Below, piece after piece: positions 5,274 through 61,079 of a stretch of DNA of 64,000 bases. The DNA lies in assembly GCF_001618685.1 (NCBI RefSeq), contig NZ_CP014342.1, forward strand, positions 1,178,001 to 1,242,000, given 5' to 3'. Every line of letters starts with the position of its first letter. Positions within the stretch are counted from its first letter, which is position 1. Under the pieces are notes generated by a model that did not search any database, had not been told where the DNA came from, and saw only the letters and a program-made list of their open reading frames with translations. This stretch comes from Geobacillus subterraneus (GTDB lineage: Bacteria > Bacillota > Bacilli > Bacillales > Anoxybacillaceae). The position numbers and the translations under genes were made by a program.

Positions 5274-6728
5274 CTTAATTAGGCGAGAAGACTCCCACTT
5301 CAACGAAGCGAAGCGGAGTAAGTGGGAGATGAATCGCCTTAACTATATTTTGCTGAAAATAGGATAGATTCAGTAAAATATAGTATCATATAGTTAGATG
5401 GGAGGTGAAAACATGTATTTTTGTATCAAACAACAGCTAAATGGTTTGACCAAAGAAGAATACTTGACTCTTCGAGAACTGTGCCATATTGCCAAGAACA
5501 TGTACAACGTCGGATTGTACAATGTCAGACAATACTATTTTGAACACAAGGAATTTCTTAATTATGAGAAAAACGATCATCTTGCAAAAACTAACGAAAA
5601 CTATAAGCTGTTAAACAGCAACATGGCACAGCAAATTTTAAAAAAGGTTAATGAAGCCTTTAAATCTTTCTTTGGTTTGATCAGTCTTGCCAAACAAGGA
5701 AAATATGACCACAAGGCTATCAGTATTCCAAAATATCTTAAAAAAGATGGCTTTCATTCACTGATCATTGGCCAGATTCGTATAGACGGCAACAAATTCA
5801 CGATACCGTATTCTCGCCTATTTAAAAAGACTCACAAGCCTATCACGATAACGATTCCGCCTGTGTTGCTGGACAAAAAGATTAAGCAGATTGAAATCAT
5901 TCCTAAGCATCATGCCAGGTTCTTTGAGATTCAGTACAAATATGAAATGCCTGAAGATCAAAGAGAATTAAATGACCAAAAAGCACTGGCCATTGATTTA
6001 GGATTAAACAATTTTGCCACTTGTGTCACATCAGACGGCAGATCATTCATCATTGATGGGCGGAGATGAAAAAGTATAAATCAATGGTTTAACAAAGAAA
6101 ATGCCAGACTTCAAAGCATAAAAGATAAGCAAAAAATCAAAGGCACCACTCGTAAACAGGCTTTGCTTGCTATGAATCGCAATAATAAAGTGAATGATTA
6201 TATCAACAAGACTTGCCGTTACATCATTAACTACTGTATTGAAAATCAAATTGGCAAACTTGTCATTGGCTATGCGGAAACATTACAACGCAATATTAAT
6301 CTAGGAAAAAAGACAAATCAAAACTTTGTCAATATTCCTCTCGGTAACATAAAAGAAAAATTAGAATATCTTTGTGAATTTTACGGCATTGAATTCTTGA
6401 AACAGGAAGAATCATATACGTCTCAAGCCAGCTTTTTTGACGGCGATGAGATTCCTGAATATAATGCCGACAATCCAAAAGAATATAAGTTCAGCGGCAA
6501 ACGTATTAAGCGCGGCTTGTATCGAACAAAGTCTGGCAAACTAATTAATGCTGATGTCAATGGCGCATTAAACATCTTAAAGAAAAGTAAAGCTGTAGAC
6601 CTGAGTGTCTTATGCTCTAGCGGCGAAGTGGACACGCCTCAAAGAATAAGGATTGCTTGAAGCAGTCAAACTTCTTTGGAAGCCTCCACTTCAAATTTTC
6701 GCTAGAAAATTAAGTGGGGGTAGTTCAC
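5274..6728 (+). mobile_element. IS605-family (IS1341-type, tnpB-only) insertion in prpE
   Basis: The boundaries are fixed by rebuilding prpE: removing 5274-6728 (1,455 bp) restores the reading frame exactly with no duplicated target, as expected for single-strand transposition. The base-exact left flank is TTTAT (5269-5273), a plausible target/TAM. The left end has a hairpin (CTCCCACTT pairing with AAGTGGGAG, about 5292-5328). The right end has another (CTCCACTT with AAGTGGGGG) and finishes GGTAGTTCAC. The same right-end decamer is found at 38777 in a second, unrelated tnpB remnant. No tnpA is present, so movement would need a transposase in trans. Confidence 0.9.
5413..6660 (+). pseudogene. 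tnpB: tnpB RNA-guided nuclease gene with in-frame stop
   Basis: Start ATG at 5413 follows GGGAGGTG. The frame is continuous except for a TGA at 6067-6069 in place of a sense codon (TTA to TGA would be enough), giving N-terminal (218 codons) and C-terminal parts in the same frame. RuvC-I aspartate is in ALAIDLGLNNFAT and RuvC-III aspartate in INADVNGALNIL. The usual zinc-ribbon CxxC pairs are absent, and the RuvC-II glutamate may be in KQEESYTSQASF rather than the usual VIE position. Low GC and different codon use set it apart from prpE. Confidence 0.88.
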
Positions 6729-31775: not shown

Positions 31776-31963
31776 GACCATCCTCCATGAAAACGGTAAG
31801 TTCACCTGTTATTGTAACATATTTTGGCGAAAAGATGTTAATGAAGGGCTCGAATTTTTCGTGAATTTGCCGAACATTGCCAGCGTCAAAAAAAGGACTT
31901 GCCAAAACGGCCGGAATGGGTTACATTTTTTTATAAATTAACAAAATTGAATACACGTCCTGT

Positions 31964-32073
31964 TCTTATCGAGAGAAGCGGAGGGAACTGGCCCTGTGAA
32001 GCTTCAGCAACCAGCCGTTTGGCGGCCAGGTGCTAAATCCAGCGAATTGAGCGCTCAATTCGGCAGATAAGAA
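31964..32073 (+). promoter_or_regulatory. SAM-I (S-box) riboswitch
   Basis: The segment has the S-box order: TCTTATCGAGAGAAGCGGAG, then GGGAACTGGCCC, AGCTTCAGCAACC, GCCAGGTGCTAAATCC and the closing AGATAAGA. It sits about 200 bp upstream of metI. Binding S-adenosylmethionine should favour the terminator that follows. Confidence 0.95.
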
Positions 32074-54974: not shown

Positions 54975-55060
54975 CGGGAGCTTGTGGAATCAGGCTGAGA
55001 GTACGGCTAATCCGCCGTTGACCGTTTGAACCTGTTGGATAATGCCAGCGCAGGGAAAGA
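54975..55060 (+). promoter_or_regulatory. TPP (THI-box) riboswitch
   Basis: The conserved THI-box order is present: CGGGAGCTTG, CAGGCTGAGAGTACGGC, then GACCGTTTGAACCTG, GGATAATGCCAGCGCAGGGA. Thiamine pyrophosphate binding should terminate transcription at the hairpin that follows, switching off the LuxE-LuxC-ABC-SDR operon. Confidence 0.95.
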
Positions 55061-55068
55061 GAGTATAC

Positions 55069-55105
55069 ATAAGCACTTTGCCTGCGTGCAAAGTGCTTTT
55101 TGGCA
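55069..55105 (+). terminator. Riboswitch-controlled terminator
   Basis: AAGCACTTTGC pairs with GCAAAGTGCTTTTT nine bases after the TPP aptamer. Confidence 0.9.
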
Positions 55106-55145
55106 TGGATCGAAAGGCGCGATCGAGCGGAAAGGGTGGGGAAAG

Positions 55146-56231
55146 ATGACACAACAAGAAATGATCGAAAGCTTGCTTCAGTTGATCAATAAAGAAACGT
55201 CCACAGAGGAAGAATTCAATGAGCATGCGCTCATGTTATTTGCCTATCAATATGAAAACAATGTTCCGTATCGTACATATTGCATGCAAAAAGGAAAAAC
55301 GGCAAGAACGGTGAAAACATGGCGGGACATTCCGGCTGTGCCGATTAACGCCTTTAAAGAATTAACGTTAAGTTGTGTTCCTCCCGAACAGGCTGAACGC
55401 GTGTTTATGACGAGCGGCACGACGCAAGGAGTGCGCGGGAAACATTACCACCCGGCGTTAAGCGTGTACGATCAGTCAATGATCGTCAATTTTCAAAAGC
55501 GGTTCATGAAAGAGCGCAACAAAATCAAAATGGGTATTCTTTTTCCGACAGAAGACGAGCTGCCGAACTCTTCGCTCGCCCATTATTTAGCGCTCGCTGT
55601 CAATGTGTTTGGCACGGAAGACAGCCGGTATTTTGTCAACCGGGATGGCCTTGACATCGACCGGCTTCTTGCTGAGCTGGAACAGGCGGAACAGTCAGGT
55701 GAGCCGTACGCCCTGCTAGGCGCTTCGTTTAGCTTCGTTCATTTGTTTGAGGAGCTCGCCAAACGCGGCAAAACGTTCCGCTTGCCGGAAGGGAGCCGGA
55801 TTCTTGATACGGGCGGCTTTAAAAATCAGTCGCGGGAAATGGACTTGGACGAGTTTTACGACACGCTGTCTTCGTTCCTTGGCGTCCCGCGCCGCGAGTG
55901 CATCAACATGTATGGGATGACCGAGCTGAGCACGCAATTTTATGATGACGGAAATGAGACCGTTCCGTCGGTGAAATCGGGACCGCATTGGATTCGCACA
56001 AGGGTGATCCACCCGTTAACCGGAGAAGAGATGCCGAAAGGAGAACGCGGCGTCCTCGTTCATTGCGACCTCGGCAACTTTAACTCGGTAACGACGATTT
56101 TGACGGAAGATACGGGCGTGGAAACAGACGGCGGGTTCTTATTGCTCGGCCGGGTGCAAGGGGCGGAAGCGAAAGGCTGTTCGATCGCGGTCGAAGAATT
56201 CATCCGCGCGGCAAAGGGGACATCCGAATGA
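55146..56231 (+). CDS. LuxE-family acyl-protein synthetase
   Basis: The 361-residue protein has the adenylate-forming motifs VFMTSGTTQGVRGKHY and INMYGMTELSTQFY, DTGGFKNQSREM and, 17 residues from the end, KGCSIAVEEF with the cysteine (about 345) that accepts the acyl group in LuxE. LuxE activates a carboxylic acid as acyl-AMP and carries it as a thioester for reduction by LuxC. ATG 55146 follows AAAGGGTGGGGAAAG. It overlaps the luxC-like gene by 4 bases. No luxA or luxB is present. Confidence 0.9.
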   Translation: MTQQEMIESLLQLINKETSTEEEFNEHALMLFAYQYENNVPYRTYCMQKGKTARTVKTWRDIPAVPINAFKELTLSCVPPEQAERVFMTSGTTQGVRGKHYHPALSVYDQSMIVNFQKRFMKERNKIKMGILFPTEDELPNSSLAHYLALAVNVFGTEDSRYFVNRDGLDIDRLLAELEQAEQSGEPYALLGASFSFVHLFEELAKRGKTFRLPEGSRILDTGGFKNQSREMDLDEFYDTLSSFLGVPRRECINMYGMTELSTQFYDDGNETVPSVKSGPHWIRTRVIHPLTGEEMPKGERGVLVHCDLGNFNSVTTILTEDTGVETDGGFLLLGRVQGAEAKGCSIAVEEFIRAAKGTSE

Positions 56232-57679
56232 GAGAATATGCCGGCTATCTCCCCTACATCGGGGATGAACCGATTGAAACACGTGTGTTAACGTTTGAAA
56301 AAAACGGAGAAAGAGTCGAAGTGGAAGTTCCTCTTTTAACGGTCGAGCAGCTGAACAAAGTGATGGGAAAAGTGAAACAAGCCAGCGCCCAGTTTCTCAA
56401 ATCGCTTTCGGTGACGGAGATCATCGACTTGCTTGACCGAGTGATGGCACAGCTGTTGGACCGCCGCCATCCGTACCGGCAAAAGGCGGAACAAGTGCTG
56501 CCGATTGTGACGGGCTATGATGAAGAAATGGTCCGTTTAGGGTTGACCTCGTATTTCAAAACGTTCCGCAAGCCGCAGCTGCAGCGGTTTCTTGTGGAGG
56601 ACTTGGAAAATCCGTTGCTTCTTGACGATTTTCAACCGCGGGCCAAAGGCGGCTTTTCCAAAGCAGTCGGCCCGGATGTCATCGTTCACGTTTGGGCGGG
56701 AAACGTGCCGGCGCTGCCGTTATGGAGCCTTATTTCCGGGTTGTTGGTGAAGTCGGGGAACATCGGGAAAGTGTCGAGCGCCGAGCCGTTATTTGCCGGT
56801 TGGTTTGCCCGCTTGTTAGTGGAGGTGGAGCCAAAATTGGCCGATTGCCTCGCTGTTGTTTGGTGGAAAGGCGGGGATATCGAGAGGGAGCGCGCCGTGT
56901 TTGGGCAAGCTGACGTTGTTGTCGGCTATGGAAGCAACGCGTCGCTCGAAGAGATGCAGCGCCGCCTTCCGGTGACGGTCCGATTCTTGCCGTTTGGGCA
57001 TAAAGTGAGTTTCGGCCTCGTTTCCCGTTCCTGTCTTGATGCGCGCAAGGCGTGGCAGGCCGCCCACCAAGCGGCGCTCGATATCGTGCGCTATGACCAG
57101 CAAGGGTGTTATTCGCCCCATCTGTTTTACGTGCAAACCGGCGGAAGCGTGTCGCCAAAAGAGTTTGCCCGCTATGTCGCCCACGAGCTGAACTGTTTTG
57201 CGAAACGGTTTCCGCGGCGTCCTCTTTCCCTTGAGGAAATGGCGGCGCAAGCAAGTTGGCGGCAGCGCGAAGAATTGGGCGTGCTGGCGAACAAGGAAAA
57301 GGAAGTGCTCGGAAACGAAGCAGGAGACTGGACAGTTGTTTACGAACCGGAACGCCGGGAGTTTGCCGCGAGTTGCCTAAACCGGGCAGTGAAAATCGTC
57401 GCCTTTGATGACATTTCACAAGTGATTGCAGAAATCGCCCCGTATCGGGCATTGTTGCAGACGGCGGGGGTGGCTGCCTCGCCAAAAGAGCTGTTCGAAT
57501 GGGCGGAGCAGTTAGGAAAGGCGGGTGTCACCCGCATTACAGCGCTCGGGCATATGACGTCCCCTGAAGCGGGCTGGCATCATGATGGGCGCTTTAATTT
57601 GCGCGATCTTGTGCAAATGGTCGACATTGAATCAGCGGCTGAAGCATATGCGGAACAGTTCGCTCCTTATGTCGATTAA
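56228..57679 (+). CDS. LuxC-family acyl reductase
   Basis: The 483-residue aldehyde-dehydrogenase-fold protein has VIVHVWAGNVPALPLWSLIS, VVVGYGSNASLEEM and the catalytic YDQQGCYSPHLFYVQ (Cys about 294). LuxC reduces acyl groups from LuxE or acyl-CoA to aldehydes with NADPH. The length equals that of fatty acid reductases, and the active site looks complete. It is coupled to luxE by overlap and followed after 14 bp by the ABC ATPase, so a dedicated acid-to-aldehyde step is tied to transport. Confidence 0.92.
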   Translation: MREYAGYLPYIGDEPIETRVLTFEKNGERVEVEVPLLTVEQLNKVMGKVKQASAQFLKSLSVTEIIDLLDRVMAQLLDRRHPYRQKAEQVLPIVTGYDEEMVRLGLTSYFKTFRKPQLQRFLVEDLENPLLLDDFQPRAKGGFSKAVGPDVIVHVWAGNVPALPLWSLISGLLVKSGNIGKVSSAEPLFAGWFARLLVEVEPKLADCLAVVWWKGGDIERERAVFGQADVVVGYGSNASLEEMQRRLPVTVRFLPFGHKVSFGLVSRSCLDARKAWQAAHQAALDIVRYDQQGCYSPHLFYVQTGGSVSPKEFARYVAHELNCFAKRFPRRPLSLEEMAAQASWRQREELGVLANKEKEVLGNEAGDWTVVYEPERREFAASCLNRAVKIVAFDDISQVIAEIAPYRALLQTAGVAASPKELFEWAEQLGKAGVTRITALGHMTSPEAGWHHDGRFNLRDLVQMVDIESAAEAYAEQFAPYVD

Positions 57680-57693
57680 GGAGGAAAATAGGG

Positions 57694-58440
57694 ATGAGCT
57701 TTTTGCAGCTAGACCGTGTGACGTATCGTTACCAAGGGTTGACACCGGTGATCGACGGGGTCAGTTGGACGATCAATGAAGGGGAATTCCATTGCCTCGT
57801 CGGGAAAAGCGGCTGCGGCAAGACGACGTTGTTAAAGCTTGCGGCCGGCCTGTTGCAACCGGATGAAGGGGCCGTTTATTTGCGAGGCGAAAAAGTGACG
57901 AAACCTTCCTCTTCGATCGGCTATGTTTTTCAAGCGCCGACGTTGCTTGAATGGAAGCGGGTCATCGATAATGTTTTGCTGCCGATCTCGCTCAAACGAA
58001 AACCGGCGAAGGAAGATTACGAGTTGGCGCACGATTTGCTCGAGCGGGTCGGGTTGTCCGCCTACCGCGACCATTACCCGGCTCAACTGTCCGGCGGCCA
58101 GCAAAGCCGGGTGGCCATGGCCAGAGCCCTCATTCAACGGCCGGCGCTTTTGTTTTTGGACGAGCCGTTTGCGGCATTGGACGCCATTACGCGCGAAGAA
58201 TTGCAAGCTGACTTGTTGACGCTTTGCCGGCTGCAAAACACAAGCGTCTTGTTCATTACCCACGATATTGCTGAGGCCGTATATTTAGCGGATCGCATCG
58301 CTGTCATGGCCGCCGGGAAGATTGTCTATGCGCTCGACGTCGACCTTCCGAAACCGCGAACGTTAGAAATGCGCTATGAGCCGCGATTTAACGAGCTTAG
58401 TTTTCACGTGCGGCAGGCGATGGAGGGGGTGAAGCGATGA
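57694..58440 (+). CDS. ABC transporter ATPase (ThiZ/SsuB type)
   Basis: The 248-residue ATPase has Walker A LVGKSGCGKTTLLKLAAG, the signature QLSGGQQSRVAMARAL, Walker B LLFLDEPFAALD and the switch histidine in ITHDIAEAVYLAD. GGAGGAAAATAGGG precedes the ATG. It overlaps the permease start by 4 bases. It resembles ATPases of THI5/sulphonate-type importers. Confidence 0.94.
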   Translation: MSFLQLDRVTYRYQGLTPVIDGVSWTINEGEFHCLVGKSGCGKTTLLKLAAGLLQPDEGAVYLRGEKVTKPSSSIGYVFQAPTLLEWKRVIDNVLLPISLKRKPAKEDYELAHDLLERVGLSAYRDHYPAQLSGGQQSRVAMARALIQRPALLFLDEPFAALDAITREELQADLLTLCRLQNTSVLFITHDIAEAVYLADRIAVMAAGKIVYALDVDLPKPRTLEMRYEPRFNELSFHVRQAMEGVKR

Positions 58441-59192
58441 ATCGGGCGCCCGTTTATTCGCTAGTCTTGTTTGTTGCGCTTCTTCTCGGATGGGAGCTGG
58501 CCGCTAGGCAAATGTCGGAGCTCGTCCTGCCGGCGCCGTCGGTCGTCGCCGCGACACTTTTTGATGGCATAAGGACCGGCTATTTTTGGCCGCACATCGT
58601 TCGGACAAGCTTGGAAGTGTTGCTTGGCCTTGGCTTAGGAAGCGGCCTTGGCCTCATCGTCGGCATTCTCATGGGGGAAATTGAATTTTTGCGCAACTTG
58701 TTCTTCCCGTACGTCGTCGCCAGCCAGGCCGTGCCGAAACTCGCCTTGGCGCCGTTGTTTATTCTTTGGTTTGGTTTCGGCATGACGTCGAAAGTGGTCA
58801 TTACGGCCTTGATTTGTTTTTTCCCTTTGCTTGAAAATACGGTGACGGCGATTCAATATACGGATCGGAACAAACTCGAACTGTTTCGCGTGTTAGGCGC
58901 GACGCGCTGGCAAACGCTCATTCATTTGAAACTTCCCGCCGGGCTGCCGCATATTTTCGCCGGTTTTCGCGTGGCCGTCGTCTTGGCGGTCGTCGGGGCG
59001 GTCGTCGGCGAATTTATCGGCGCCAGCGAAGGGCTGGGAGCGATGATTATTGCTTCCCAAGGAATGATGGACACCCCGCTTATGTTTTCCGTCTTGCTTT
59101 TATTGACGCTGTTGGGCATGGCACTCTACCAAATCGTTCATTTCTTTGAAAAACGATTAGCAAAACCATATGAAAAGGAGACAAGAAAATGA
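58437..59192 (+). CDS. ABC transporter permease (ThiX/SsuC type)
   Basis: The 251-residue permease has about six helices and the inner-membrane loop ELFRVLGATRWQTLIHLKLP (EAA-like) that contacts the ATPase. VASQAVPKLALAPLFILWFG is typical of the nitrate/sulphonate/thiamine-precursor group. Its stop overlaps the binding-protein ATG by 4 bases. It imports an unknown small substrate bound by the next gene product. Confidence 0.93.
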   Translation: MNRAPVYSLVLFVALLLGWELAARQMSELVLPAPSVVAATLFDGIRTGYFWPHIVRTSLEVLLGLGLGSGLGLIVGILMGEIEFLRNLFFPYVVASQAVPKLALAPLFILWFGFGMTSKVVITALICFFPLLENTVTAIQYTDRNKLELFRVLGATRWQTLIHLKLPAGLPHIFAGFRVAVVLAVVGAVVGEFIGASEGLGAMIIASQGMMDTPLMFSVLLLLTLLGMALYQIVHFFEKRLAKPYEKETRK

Positions 59193-60223
59193 GACGAAAA
59201 ACGATGGTCACCGTATGGCTGCTAGCCATCGCTTTGTTCTTAGCCGCTTGCGGTGCGGCCGGGCAGAAACAGGAGGAGGCGGGCCGAACGACGGGAAAGG
59301 CGAAAGAAGAAAAAACAGAACAGCTGCGTGTGGCCCTTTGGAGCCAGCCGATCACCGAGCAAACGAACTTGCTGGCGGAAAAAGAAAAAGGCTTTTTTAA
59401 AGAAAAAGGCTTGAACGTGACGCTCATTCCTGGCGCCGGCGGCGGCGATGCGATCAAAAACATTCTTTCCGGACAAGCCGATATCGCTTTTACGGATCCC
59501 GGTTCACTGTTTTTTGCGTTAGATAAAGGAGCGAAATTAAAAGTCATTTACAATATTTATCCGCAAAACGTCTTCAACGTCGTCTCGTTAAAAGACAAAC
59601 AAATCACGAAACCGGAAGACTTGAAAGGAAAGAAAATCGGCGTGTACAGCTTATCGAGCGGAACGCGGCAAAACTTATTAGTGCTGTTGCATCAAGCCGG
59701 GCTTTCGGAAAACGATGTGACGATTGTCGAAACCGGTTTGTTAAACTTTGCCCCGCTTATGCAAGGGCAAGTTGATGCGACAGCGGCGACCGATACCGGG
59801 CTTGTGATGGCGAAGGAAAAAGGATTAGGGGACGTCAACGTCATTGAAGTGAAAAACTATCTCAATATCCCGAGCGACGTCTTTGTCGTTACCGAGAAGA
59901 CGTACAACGAGAAAAAAGAGTTGTTGCAAAAGTTTTTAGAAGCGTATCGAAACAGCGCCCAATGGATGATCGACCACCCGGAGGAAGCGGCGTCGTTAGC
60001 CGTCAAATACGCCATCGATGGCAAGGACGAGCAACGCAACTTACAAATCATCCAGTTGCGAAATGCGTCGAGCGTTTCGCCATTGACGGAAGAAAAAGGG
60101 TTAGGGGCGCTTGATGTAAACGTGCTGCAACAAGCTGCGAACACGTACAAAACGTTAGGCTTAATCAAAAACGACATCCACATGGCGGAAGTTGTCACGA
60201 ATGAGTTGCTTCCAAAACAATAA
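59189..60223 (+). CDS. Substrate-binding lipoprotein, NMT1/THI5 type (ThiY-like)
   Basis: The 344-residue lipoprotein has a signal peptide and lipobox LAACG (cysteine about residue 23), then a THI5/NMT1 periplasmic-binding fold (EKGFFKEKGLNVTLIPGAGG, ILSGQADIAFTDPGSLFFAL, LKGKKIGVYSLSSGTRQNLL). ThiY-type proteins bind formylaminopyrimidine, a thiamine breakdown product; the ligand here is not known. Together with the TPP riboswitch this points to thiamine-precursor uptake. Confidence 0.9.
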   Translation: MRRKTMVTVWLLAIALFLAACGAAGQKQEEAGRTTGKAKEEKTEQLRVALWSQPITEQTNLLAEKEKGFFKEKGLNVTLIPGAGGGDAIKNILSGQADIAFTDPGSLFFALDKGAKLKVIYNIYPQNVFNVVSLKDKQITKPEDLKGKKIGVYSLSSGTRQNLLVLLHQAGLSENDVTIVETGLLNFAPLMQGQVDATAATDTGLVMAKEKGLGDVNVIEVKNYLNIPSDVFVVTEKTYNEKKELLQKFLEAYRNSAQWMIDHPEEAASLAVKYAIDGKDEQRNLQIIQLRNASSVSPLTEEKGLGALDVNVLQQAANTYKTLGLIKNDIHMAEVVTNELLPKQ

Positions 60224-60235
60224 CGGAGGACGAAA

Positions 60236-61006
60236 ATGGGGATGTTCTCAGGAAAAGTGATCGTTGTGACCGGTGCGAGCCGGGGCATCGGTGCGGCCAT
60301 CGCCCGCGCGTTTGCCCGTGAACATGGGACGGTCGTCGTCAACTATTTGCAAAATCAGCAGGCGGCGGAACAAGTGGCCGCCGCCTGCATTGAACTTGGC
60401 GGTGATGCTTGGGCCGTCCAGGCCGATGTCACCTCGGAATCGGCGGTCAAGCAGTTGATCGAGCAAGTGATGATGGAAACAGGGAAAATTGATGTCGTCG
60501 TCAACAACGCGTTCGCGCCGTATGTATTCGACCCCGACGAGCGCAAACTGGCGTGGGAGCTTGTCTGGGAAGATTATCAAGCGCAACTGGACGGGGCGCT
60601 GCGCTCGACGCATTATATGTGCCAGGCAGTGATTCCGATCATGAAAAAGCAAGGCGGGGGGAGTATTATTAATATTGTGACAGACTTAGTCGCCCGCCCG
60701 GTCGTTCCGTATCATGACTACACGACGGCGAAAGCGGCGCTCGTCGGCTACAGCCGCAACTTAGCGGCGGAGCTCGGTCCGTTTGGCATCCGCGTCAATT
60801 GTGTCGCTCCCGGCTTAGTTTACCCGACGGACGCCAGCCGGCGGACAAAGGAAGAAGTGAAGGAAATGCTGATCGCTCAAACACCGCTGCGGCGAATCGC
60901 CACTCCTGAAGATGTCGCCGGGCCGGTTCTCTTTTTAGCGTCTGATTGGAGCCGCTTTATGACCGGACAAACGTTGTTTGTCGACGGCGGACTCGTCATG
61001 CGCTAG
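60236..61006 (+). CDS. Short-chain dehydrogenase/reductase (FabG-like)
   Basis: The 256-residue SDR has the cofactor motif VVTGASRGIGAAIARAF and YTTAK as the YxxxK pair (YHDYTTAKAALVGYSRN). Two departures from the classical pattern are visible: NNAF instead of NNAG, and INIVTDLV, where the catalytic serine position reads threonine or aspartate. GGAGGACGAAA precedes ATG 60236. Last in the operon, it could interconvert the aldehyde from LuxC with an alcohol. A terminator follows. Confidence 0.9.
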   Translation: MGMFSGKVIVVTGASRGIGAAIARAFAREHGTVVVNYLQNQQAAEQVAAACIELGGDAWAVQADVTSESAVKQLIEQVMMETGKIDVVVNNAFAPYVFDPDERKLAWELVWEDYQAQLDGALRSTHYMCQAVIPIMKKQGGGSIINIVTDLVARPVVPYHDYTTAKAALVGYSRNLAAELGPFGIRVNCVAPGLVYPTDASRRTKEEVKEMLIAQTPLRRIATPEDVAGPVLFLASDWSRFMTGQTLFVDGGLVMR

Positions 61007-61035: not shown

Positions 61036-61079
61036 AAGCTGCCCTCAAGAACGGATCATAAAGGGCAGCTTCTTTTTTC
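61036..61079 (+). terminator. Terminator of the TPP-regulated operon
   Basis: AAGCTGCCCT pairs with AGGGCAGCTT and is followed by CTTTTTT. Confidence 0.85.

Follow-up and report, generated by a model that had tools for sequence, protein, structure and literature searches.

Enzymes of the LuxE family form an acyl-AMP and then a thioester, those of the LuxC family reduce the thioester to an aldehyde, and a short-chain dehydrogenase/reductase (SDR) can yield the alcohol. Another set of proteins serves the salvage of formyl-aminopyrimidine (FAMP), in which an altered thiamine pyrimidine is imported through a THI5-like binding protein and then converted to 4-amino-5-hydroxymethyl-2-methylpyrimidine (HMP). 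Passages of PMC10470507 name the ThiXYZ importer, YlmB and TenA as components of this route, and passages of PMC2211319 place thiXYZ under the control of thiamine pyrophosphate (TPP). Here, we analyzed a 64,000-nucleotide stretch of Geobacillus subterraneus DNA (the window; bases 1178001-1242000 of a single-contig genome of 3.47 Mb) that contains, behind a TPP riboswitch, tightly packed genes assigned by Pfam to LuxE, LuxC, the ATPase and permease of an ATP-binding cassette (ABC) importer, a binding lipoprotein of the NMT1/THI5 type and an SDR. The host genome is close to Geobacillus thermodenitrificans, with operon proteins 92-96% identical to those of locus L004. The link of this module to thiamine is near certain. 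We propose, with about even confidence, that it is repressed by TPP and serves to salvage a thiamine fragment that carries a carboxyl group. The most likely candidate is the acid that corresponds to HMP, 4-amino-2-methylpyrimidine-5-carboxylate.

As in FAMP salvage, an altered pyrimidine would thus enter through a THI5-like binding protein and end as HMP. In contrast to that route, the six genes include no amidohydrolase or TenA, an acid-activating and acid-reducing trio being present instead, and the binding protein is 18-19% identical to ThiY in structural alignments. What we take, by eye, to be a TenA-like gene is found at a different place in the genome, preceded by another TPP riboswitch. 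With the LuxC-LuxE fatty acid reductase of luciferase systems (PDB 7xc6), the operon shares both families, both catalytic cysteines and the adjacency of the genes, whereas it differs in that the six genes hold no luxD or luxAB, an SDR is part of the unit, a TPP riboswitch precedes it, and the scores fall far under the long-chain equivalog cut-offs. PMC3766115 and PMC2211319 survey TPP-riboswitch transporter operons, which likewise combine riboswitch and importer; no word starting with lux occurs in the main text of either article. No description of the operon was found in the part of the open-access literature covered; an earlier mention in other sources may exist. The gene name oarX, that of a TPP-regulated oxidoreductase, did not occur in the open-access papers on thiamin that were covered.

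Organization of the operon and properties of its proteins

All features of the operon lie on the forward strand. The original prediction had read a full TPP aptamer and a terminator in front of six packed genes, and this reading was confirmed: the aptamer (RF00059; 54964-55073) scored 64.1 bits in Rfam cmscan (cut-off 54.3; genome-wide E = 3.6e-12), and it is followed by an intrinsic terminator (55072-55101) that consists of the hairpin 55072-55097, with a 10-bp stem of -14.2 kcal/mol, and a short T run. The six genes encode a LuxE-family acyl-protein synthetase (55146-56231; 361 aa; PF04443, 87.6 bits, cut-off 24.9), a LuxC-family acyl (thioester) reductase (56228-57679; 483 aa; PF05893, 325 bits, cut-off 21), the importer ATPase (57694-58440; 248 aa; PF00005, 117.7 bits), its permease (58437-59192; 251 aa; PF00528, 117.4 bits), the NMT1/THI5-like substrate-binding lipoprotein (59189-60223; 344 aa; PF09084) and the SDR oxidoreductase (60236-61006; 256 aa; PF13561, 212 bits). 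The spacings had also been given correctly, namely, an overlap of 4 nt, a gap of 14 nt, two overlaps of 4 nt, and a gap of 12 nt. The mechanical open reading frame (ORF) of LuxE begins at a TTG at 55026, within the aptamer; we set the start at the ATG at 55146 because the relatives begin there.

Both cysteines that had been singled out beforehand, the C-terminal acyl-carrying residue of LuxE and the QQGC residue of LuxC, are invariant: Cys345 in 17/17 aligned LuxE sequences and Cys294 in 14/14 aligned LuxC sequences, sets that include forms with an NCS2 permease as well as forms without a transporter. Their positions were derived from alignment to 7xc6, and their catalytic roles are presumably those of the Lux enzymes. 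The two partners of 7xc6 were the only solved relatives of LuxE (7xc6_E, E = 1.1e-21) and LuxC (7xc6_A, E = 3.3e-24) at E 0.001. An identity as a long-chain fatty acid reductase was rejected, since LuxE reached 86.9 bits against a cut-off of 550 for the long-chain-fatty-acid protein ligase equivalog NF052244, and LuxC 113.7 bits against a cut-off of 750 for the long-chain fatty acyl-CoA reductase equivalog NF052251. The absence of luciferase claimed at the outset was seen for the six operon genes. The position of the SDR at the end of the cassette is conserved across loci; the protein passes NF006393, the equivalog of the 3-oxoacyl-acyl carrier protein (ACP) reductase PRK08642 (305 bits, cut-off 292), a name to be read as annotation only. 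Judging from the protein families, the LuxE-LuxC-SDR trio likely reduces an acid; the activation is driven by ATP, and the direction would therefore lead from the acid to the alcohol. A tree of 64 LuxE sequences set the 56 operon-type rows apart from the eight others with a support of 92/96, at a point for which a long-branch warning applies.

The importer had been called ThiXYZ-type, in agreement with its PF09084 binding protein, PF00528 permease and PF00005 ATPase behind a TPP riboswitch. The nearest folds of the binding protein were the FAMP binder ThiY and a thiamin-bound protein; ThiY was the best fold by Z score (31.8; rmsd of 3.0 over 294 residues; 18% identity), and 4nmy ranked first in Foldseek. 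The ATPase scored under the own cut-off of every NCBIfam model among the 25 matches listed.

Recurrence among genomes, plasmids and thiamine genes

A LuxE-based scan of GTDB genomes revealed 43 loci, and a restriction of the gene set to a single genome, which had been named as a finding that would speak against the proposal, is thus rejected. Further Firmicutes likewise carry the set downstream of TPP riboswitches, and it is also found in Proteobacteria. The Bacillota loci belong to Geobacillus, Domibacillus, Bacillus and Neobacillus, and the remaining loci are mostly from Betaproteobacteria (Achromobacter, Bordetella, Curvibacter, Acidovorax and Comamonas, among others), together with two Defluviicoccus metagenome-assembled genomes. 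All six genes in identical order, with the importer genes between LuxC and the SDR, were present in 37 of the 43 loci. Four others (L006, L018, L043 and L045) run into contig ends and keep the gene order as far as it is visible, and the two Defluviicoccus loci (L032 and L038) contain LuxE-LuxC-SDR only. By eye, the ORF just after the core in L038 looks like an alpha/beta hydrolase.

The riboswitch survey comprised 42 genomes, L045 having been left out as a fragment. A TPP match was located 59-163 nt upstream of LuxE in 37 of them, with 22 scores at or over the cut-off of 54.3 bits, 14 between 46.7 and 53.9, and one of 28.7 bits in a partial match at a contig edge (L018). Placement was first matched by coordinate and then checked by motifs within the loci, which agreed for 35/37 (11 + 24); the 5' motif is present at that place in L012 and L039. 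Including L014, L030 and L044, in which thiW or thiD lies between riboswitch and LuxE, the unit is TPP-led in 40/42 genomes. The G. subterraneus genome contains only three TPP matches in its 3.47 Mb and yet 37/42 genomes show the pairing, which is therefore above chance.

The abundance of the operon type was assessed in even draws of genomes. It was present in 4 of 398 Bacillota genomes, the G. subterraneus genome included, and, under a stricter limit, in 6 of 398 Pseudomonadota genomes, including the centre genome and another that was already known; the operon type is thus rare and scattered. Among the loci from these draws, five carry the six genes (L079, L080, L095, L096 and L097; in L079, the match to the binding protein falls in two frames) and two the core only (L081 and L098), and all seven are TPP-led. 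The plasmid collection contained 45 records that match the LuxE of the window, and 27 records matched the LuxE of Niallia with E values of 1e-40 or lower (13 Pantoea, 9 Azospirillum, and one each of Priestia, Niallia, Pseudomonas, Lactiplantibacillus and Levilactobacillus). Nine plasmid loci were inspected, of which eight are operon-type with a TPP match upstream, seven of these over the cut-off. Plasmids and draws together provided 15 further loci, all TPP-led, with scores below the cut-off in L052 (49.0 bits), L095 (54.1 bits) and L097 (48.6 bits). The ninth plasmid locus, L058 from Priestia, was discarded as a non-member, its LuxE relative being 26.9% identical; its neighbors are a carrier protein, a fatty acyl-AMP ligase and a cysteine desulfurase.

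These loci show that the core consists of LuxE, LuxC and the SDR and that the transporter within the unit varies, being an ABC system, a nucleobase-type permease of the NCS2/SLC23 family, or absent. The core lacks the ABC importer in six TPP-led loci (L050, L051, L053, L056, L081 and L098), three of which (L053, L081 and L098) have no transporter within the unit. The alternative permease belongs to the NCS2/Xan_ur_permease family and passes the cut-off of NF037981, "purine/pyrimidine permease". On a 10-kb Lactiplantibacillus plantarum plasmid (L050; 1390-6321), a TPP riboswitch is followed by the NCS2/SLC23 permease, LuxE, LuxC and the SDR, and this cassette is a portable vitamin trait. The same cassette is present on a Levilactobacillus brevis plasmid (L051); since the protein accessions are identical, the two count as one observation. 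A Niallia taxi megaplasmid (L056) contains two tandem TPP riboswitches (5697-5993), thiW, the NCS2 permease, LuxE, LuxC and the SDR. The Pantoea locus L053 consists of the riboswitch and LuxE-LuxC-SDR, with a peptide-type ABC operon upstream of the riboswitch. A Pseudomonas silvicola megaplasmid locus (L055) resembles it, with broken frames, and looks decayed because its matches fall in several pieces and frames. Arsenic resistance genes were noted downstream of L055.

Known thiamine genes adjoin the module at several sites. Two loci (L030 and L044) have the order TPP riboswitch, thiD, luxE. In Neobacillus (L014), TPP-thiM-thiD-thiE and TPP-thiW precede the luxE operon, thiE having been named by similarity to the gene of the G. 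subterraneus genome. Locus L081 is accompanied by a divergent thiD-thiM-thiE cluster, with an own TPP riboswitch on either side, and by an AIRS-ThiN fusion gene after the SDR (PF10120, 133.8 bits). Near the operon of L013 (genome G010), we noted thiM remnants, namely, a 39-residue match and a stretch with several stops.

Candidate acids and enzyme content of the hosts

The families suggest TPP repression, activation and a two-step reduction. At low TPP, the terminator would not form and the operon would be read, and the acid would be taken up by the ABC importer, in place of which other units have an NCS2 permease or no transporter at all. LuxE would activate it with ATP and hold the thioester on Cys345; LuxC, via Cys294 and with NAD(P)H, would release the aldehyde, which the SDR would reduce to HMP. 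ThiD would then phosphorylate HMP, and ThiE would join it to the thiazole.

To define which half of thiamine is concerned, we determined the enzyme content of 43 host genomes including that of G. subterraneus (14 Bacillota and 29 Proteobacteria). ThiD was over the cut-off in 43/43 hosts. ThiM reached it in 23/43, corresponding to 14/14 Bacillota and 9/29 Proteobacteria, and thiamine pyrophosphokinase in 14/43, all of them Bacillota. ThiK was over the cut-off in none of 46 genomes, the same search giving a result over the cut-off in 1/14 controls. Of the three candidate products, HMP is thus the only one that the tested enzymes can use in every host, an argument from sufficiency that applies to operon carriers only. 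We assign the acid to the pyrimidine half with moderate confidence because ThiD is universal, ThiM, the pyrophosphokinase and ThiK show gaps, the binding protein is ThiY-like, and the alternative permease is of the nucleobase type. HMP appears to fit the context best, yet thiazole-acetic and thiamine-acetic acid are candidates as well; we give the pyrimidine acid an even chance, ahead of the thiazole-acetic acid, which is improbable, and the thiamine-acetic acid, which is more so.

Two hosts probably depend on the salvage of both thiamine halves, since ThiC is missing and the ThiG-like matches are partial: G166, the single-contig genome of L081 (no ThiC match; ThiG-like matches of at most 33.5 bits), and Bacillus sp. 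MRMR6 (G010; no ThiC; ThiG-like matches of at most 31.5 bits).

Several observations weigh against the proposal. ThiC was found in 36/43 hosts, so that carriers are not generally starved of HMP, and the G. subterraneus genome has ThiC, ThiG, ThiM and ThiD, which makes its own need for salvage not obvious. The fold of the binding protein is shared by sulfonate, taurine and pyrroloquinoline quinone binders, and the best sequence match of its profile is the uncharacterized 3qsl. The NCS2 permeases score highest to the xanthine permease PbuX, albeit under its cut-off, and a purine-like or other substrate is therefore possible. In the two Defluviicoccus genomes, the core has no TPP riboswitch in front and no thi genes were detected around it; there it possibly acts on another acid. 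Finally, relatives of LuxE and LuxC are chiefly known to act on fatty acids.

The strongest alternative, which we nevertheless consider improbable, is a conversion of 4-methylthiazole-5-acetic acid to hydroxyethylthiazole (HET), which ThiM would phosphorylate. In L014 and L056, thiW is part of the unit, and thiM lies beside the unit in L014 and L081; a thiazole acid would fit both facts, which also count against the pyrimidine acid. The family name of thiW goes no further than S component for a thiamine precursor, its product being a predicted thiazole transporter. ThiM is moreover present in all 14 Bacillota hosts counted. It is below the cut-off, however, in 20/43 hosts, eight of which are isolates; the other 12 are metagenome-derived, which weakens this objection. 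Strong ThiG matches (>240 bits) occur in 40/43 hosts, which therefore probably make the thiazole (a tally of 42 would count two weak partial matches). Furthermore, the operon is headed by thiD, not thiM, in L030 and L044, and the alternative permease is of the nucleobase type.

Two further readings are each quite unlikely. In the first, the substrate is thiamine-acetic acid, the whole vitamin with an oxidized side chain, and the product is thiamine. The thiD linkage and the nucleobase-type permease fit this poorly, and as none of the 29 proteobacterial hosts has thiamine pyrophosphokinase and ThiK is nowhere over the cut-off, these hosts could not phosphorylate thiamine with the tested enzymes. 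This argument assumes that no unknown kinase exists, and weak ThiK-like matches in 19/46 genomes reduce its force. In the second, the substrate is another carboxylate used in thiamine biosynthesis, or the module repairs an acid that arises in the cell from the HMP aldehyde; the importer would then carry HMP or a different precursor. The TPP-led units without a transporter favor it, as import need not belong to the module, whereas the position of the importer genes between LuxC and the SDR in 37/43 loci argues for uptake as part of the same unit. Production of ordinary fatty aldehydes or alcohols, with an incidental TPP switch, as the family names and the 3-oxoacyl-ACP reductase label of the SDR might suggest, is very improbable given the scores far below the long-chain cut-offs and the TPP and thi-gene linkage in two phyla.

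Regarding the salvage of the pyrimidine acid as a whole, we judge it slightly better than an even bet that the operon represents an undescribed, horizontally spread vitamin B1 route, in which an oxidized (carboxylated) pyrimidine is recovered by acid activation and reduction of the bioluminescence type, with a transporter that can be exchanged and a form that travels on plasmids, and in which LuxE and LuxC have a role in vitamin salvage beyond fatty acids. Acids also occur among the fragments of thiamine. The carboxyl of the thiazole acid cHET is lost and not reduced, and cHET was set aside as the acid, given that its 2-carboxyl would gain nothing by reduction. According to PMC5899164, one salvage route starts from cHET; otherwise, the routes in the portion of the literature covered begin with vitamin-derived amines, formamides and alcohols. 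If correct, a reductive return from side-chain acids would extend the environmental vitamin B1 cycle by a further arm. It would also account for a gene set whose members public plasmid records label as "long-chain fatty acid--CoA ligase", "acyl-CoA reductase" and "3-oxoacyl-ACP reductase", and provide a small-heteroaromatic substrate, open to testing, for LuxE and LuxC.

Leader folds and additional features

A possible antiterminator (55049-55086) would pair the 3' side of the aptamer (55049-55059) with the 5' arm and loop of the terminator (55076-55086), with a duplex energy of -14.5 kcal/mol, and it is the minimum-energy fold of the piece 55045-55110 (-20.6 kcal/mol). The minimum fold of the whole leader is the terminator form, a weak point being that 18/200 shuffles gave a fold at least as stable. 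The predicted switching of the operon by TPP hence rests on the riboswitch family more than on fold energies. The hairpin 55072-55097 was missed by a generic terminator scan, whose total of 10 is close to the shuffled mean of 10.5. A similar hairpin was present in 14/15 other Bacillota leaders, the sole miss being L014, measured before thiW, and in 0/24 proteobacterial leaders; of the 29 proteobacterial loci, five were outside this comparison, as were the leaders of L050, L056, L079 and L081. Considering the lack of a like hairpin in these 24 leaders, Proteobacteria probably use another expression platform, presumably a translational one.

In the Bacillota draw, LuxE matches that score 250-290 bits to the profile were set apart as non-members; they account for 12 of the 16 matching genomes, and the surroundings were inspected in seven (L082-L088), the other five being judged by score. 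There was no TPP riboswitch over the cut-off in L082-L088. By eye, the neighbors of this second LuxE family resemble genes for ResB/CcsA-like cytochrome c assembly, multihaem cytochromes and radical-SAM proteins, and some of its members lie within very long open frames. Phages provided a single LuxE match of 21.5%. Downstream of the SDR, direct reading of the sequence revealed a probable operon terminator (61036-61079), an inverted repeat (61036-61045/61062-61071) with a T-rich tail, whose 16-nt loop is beyond the loop limits of the generic scan. A SAM riboswitch was also noted at positions 31963-32073 of the window (92.4 bits).

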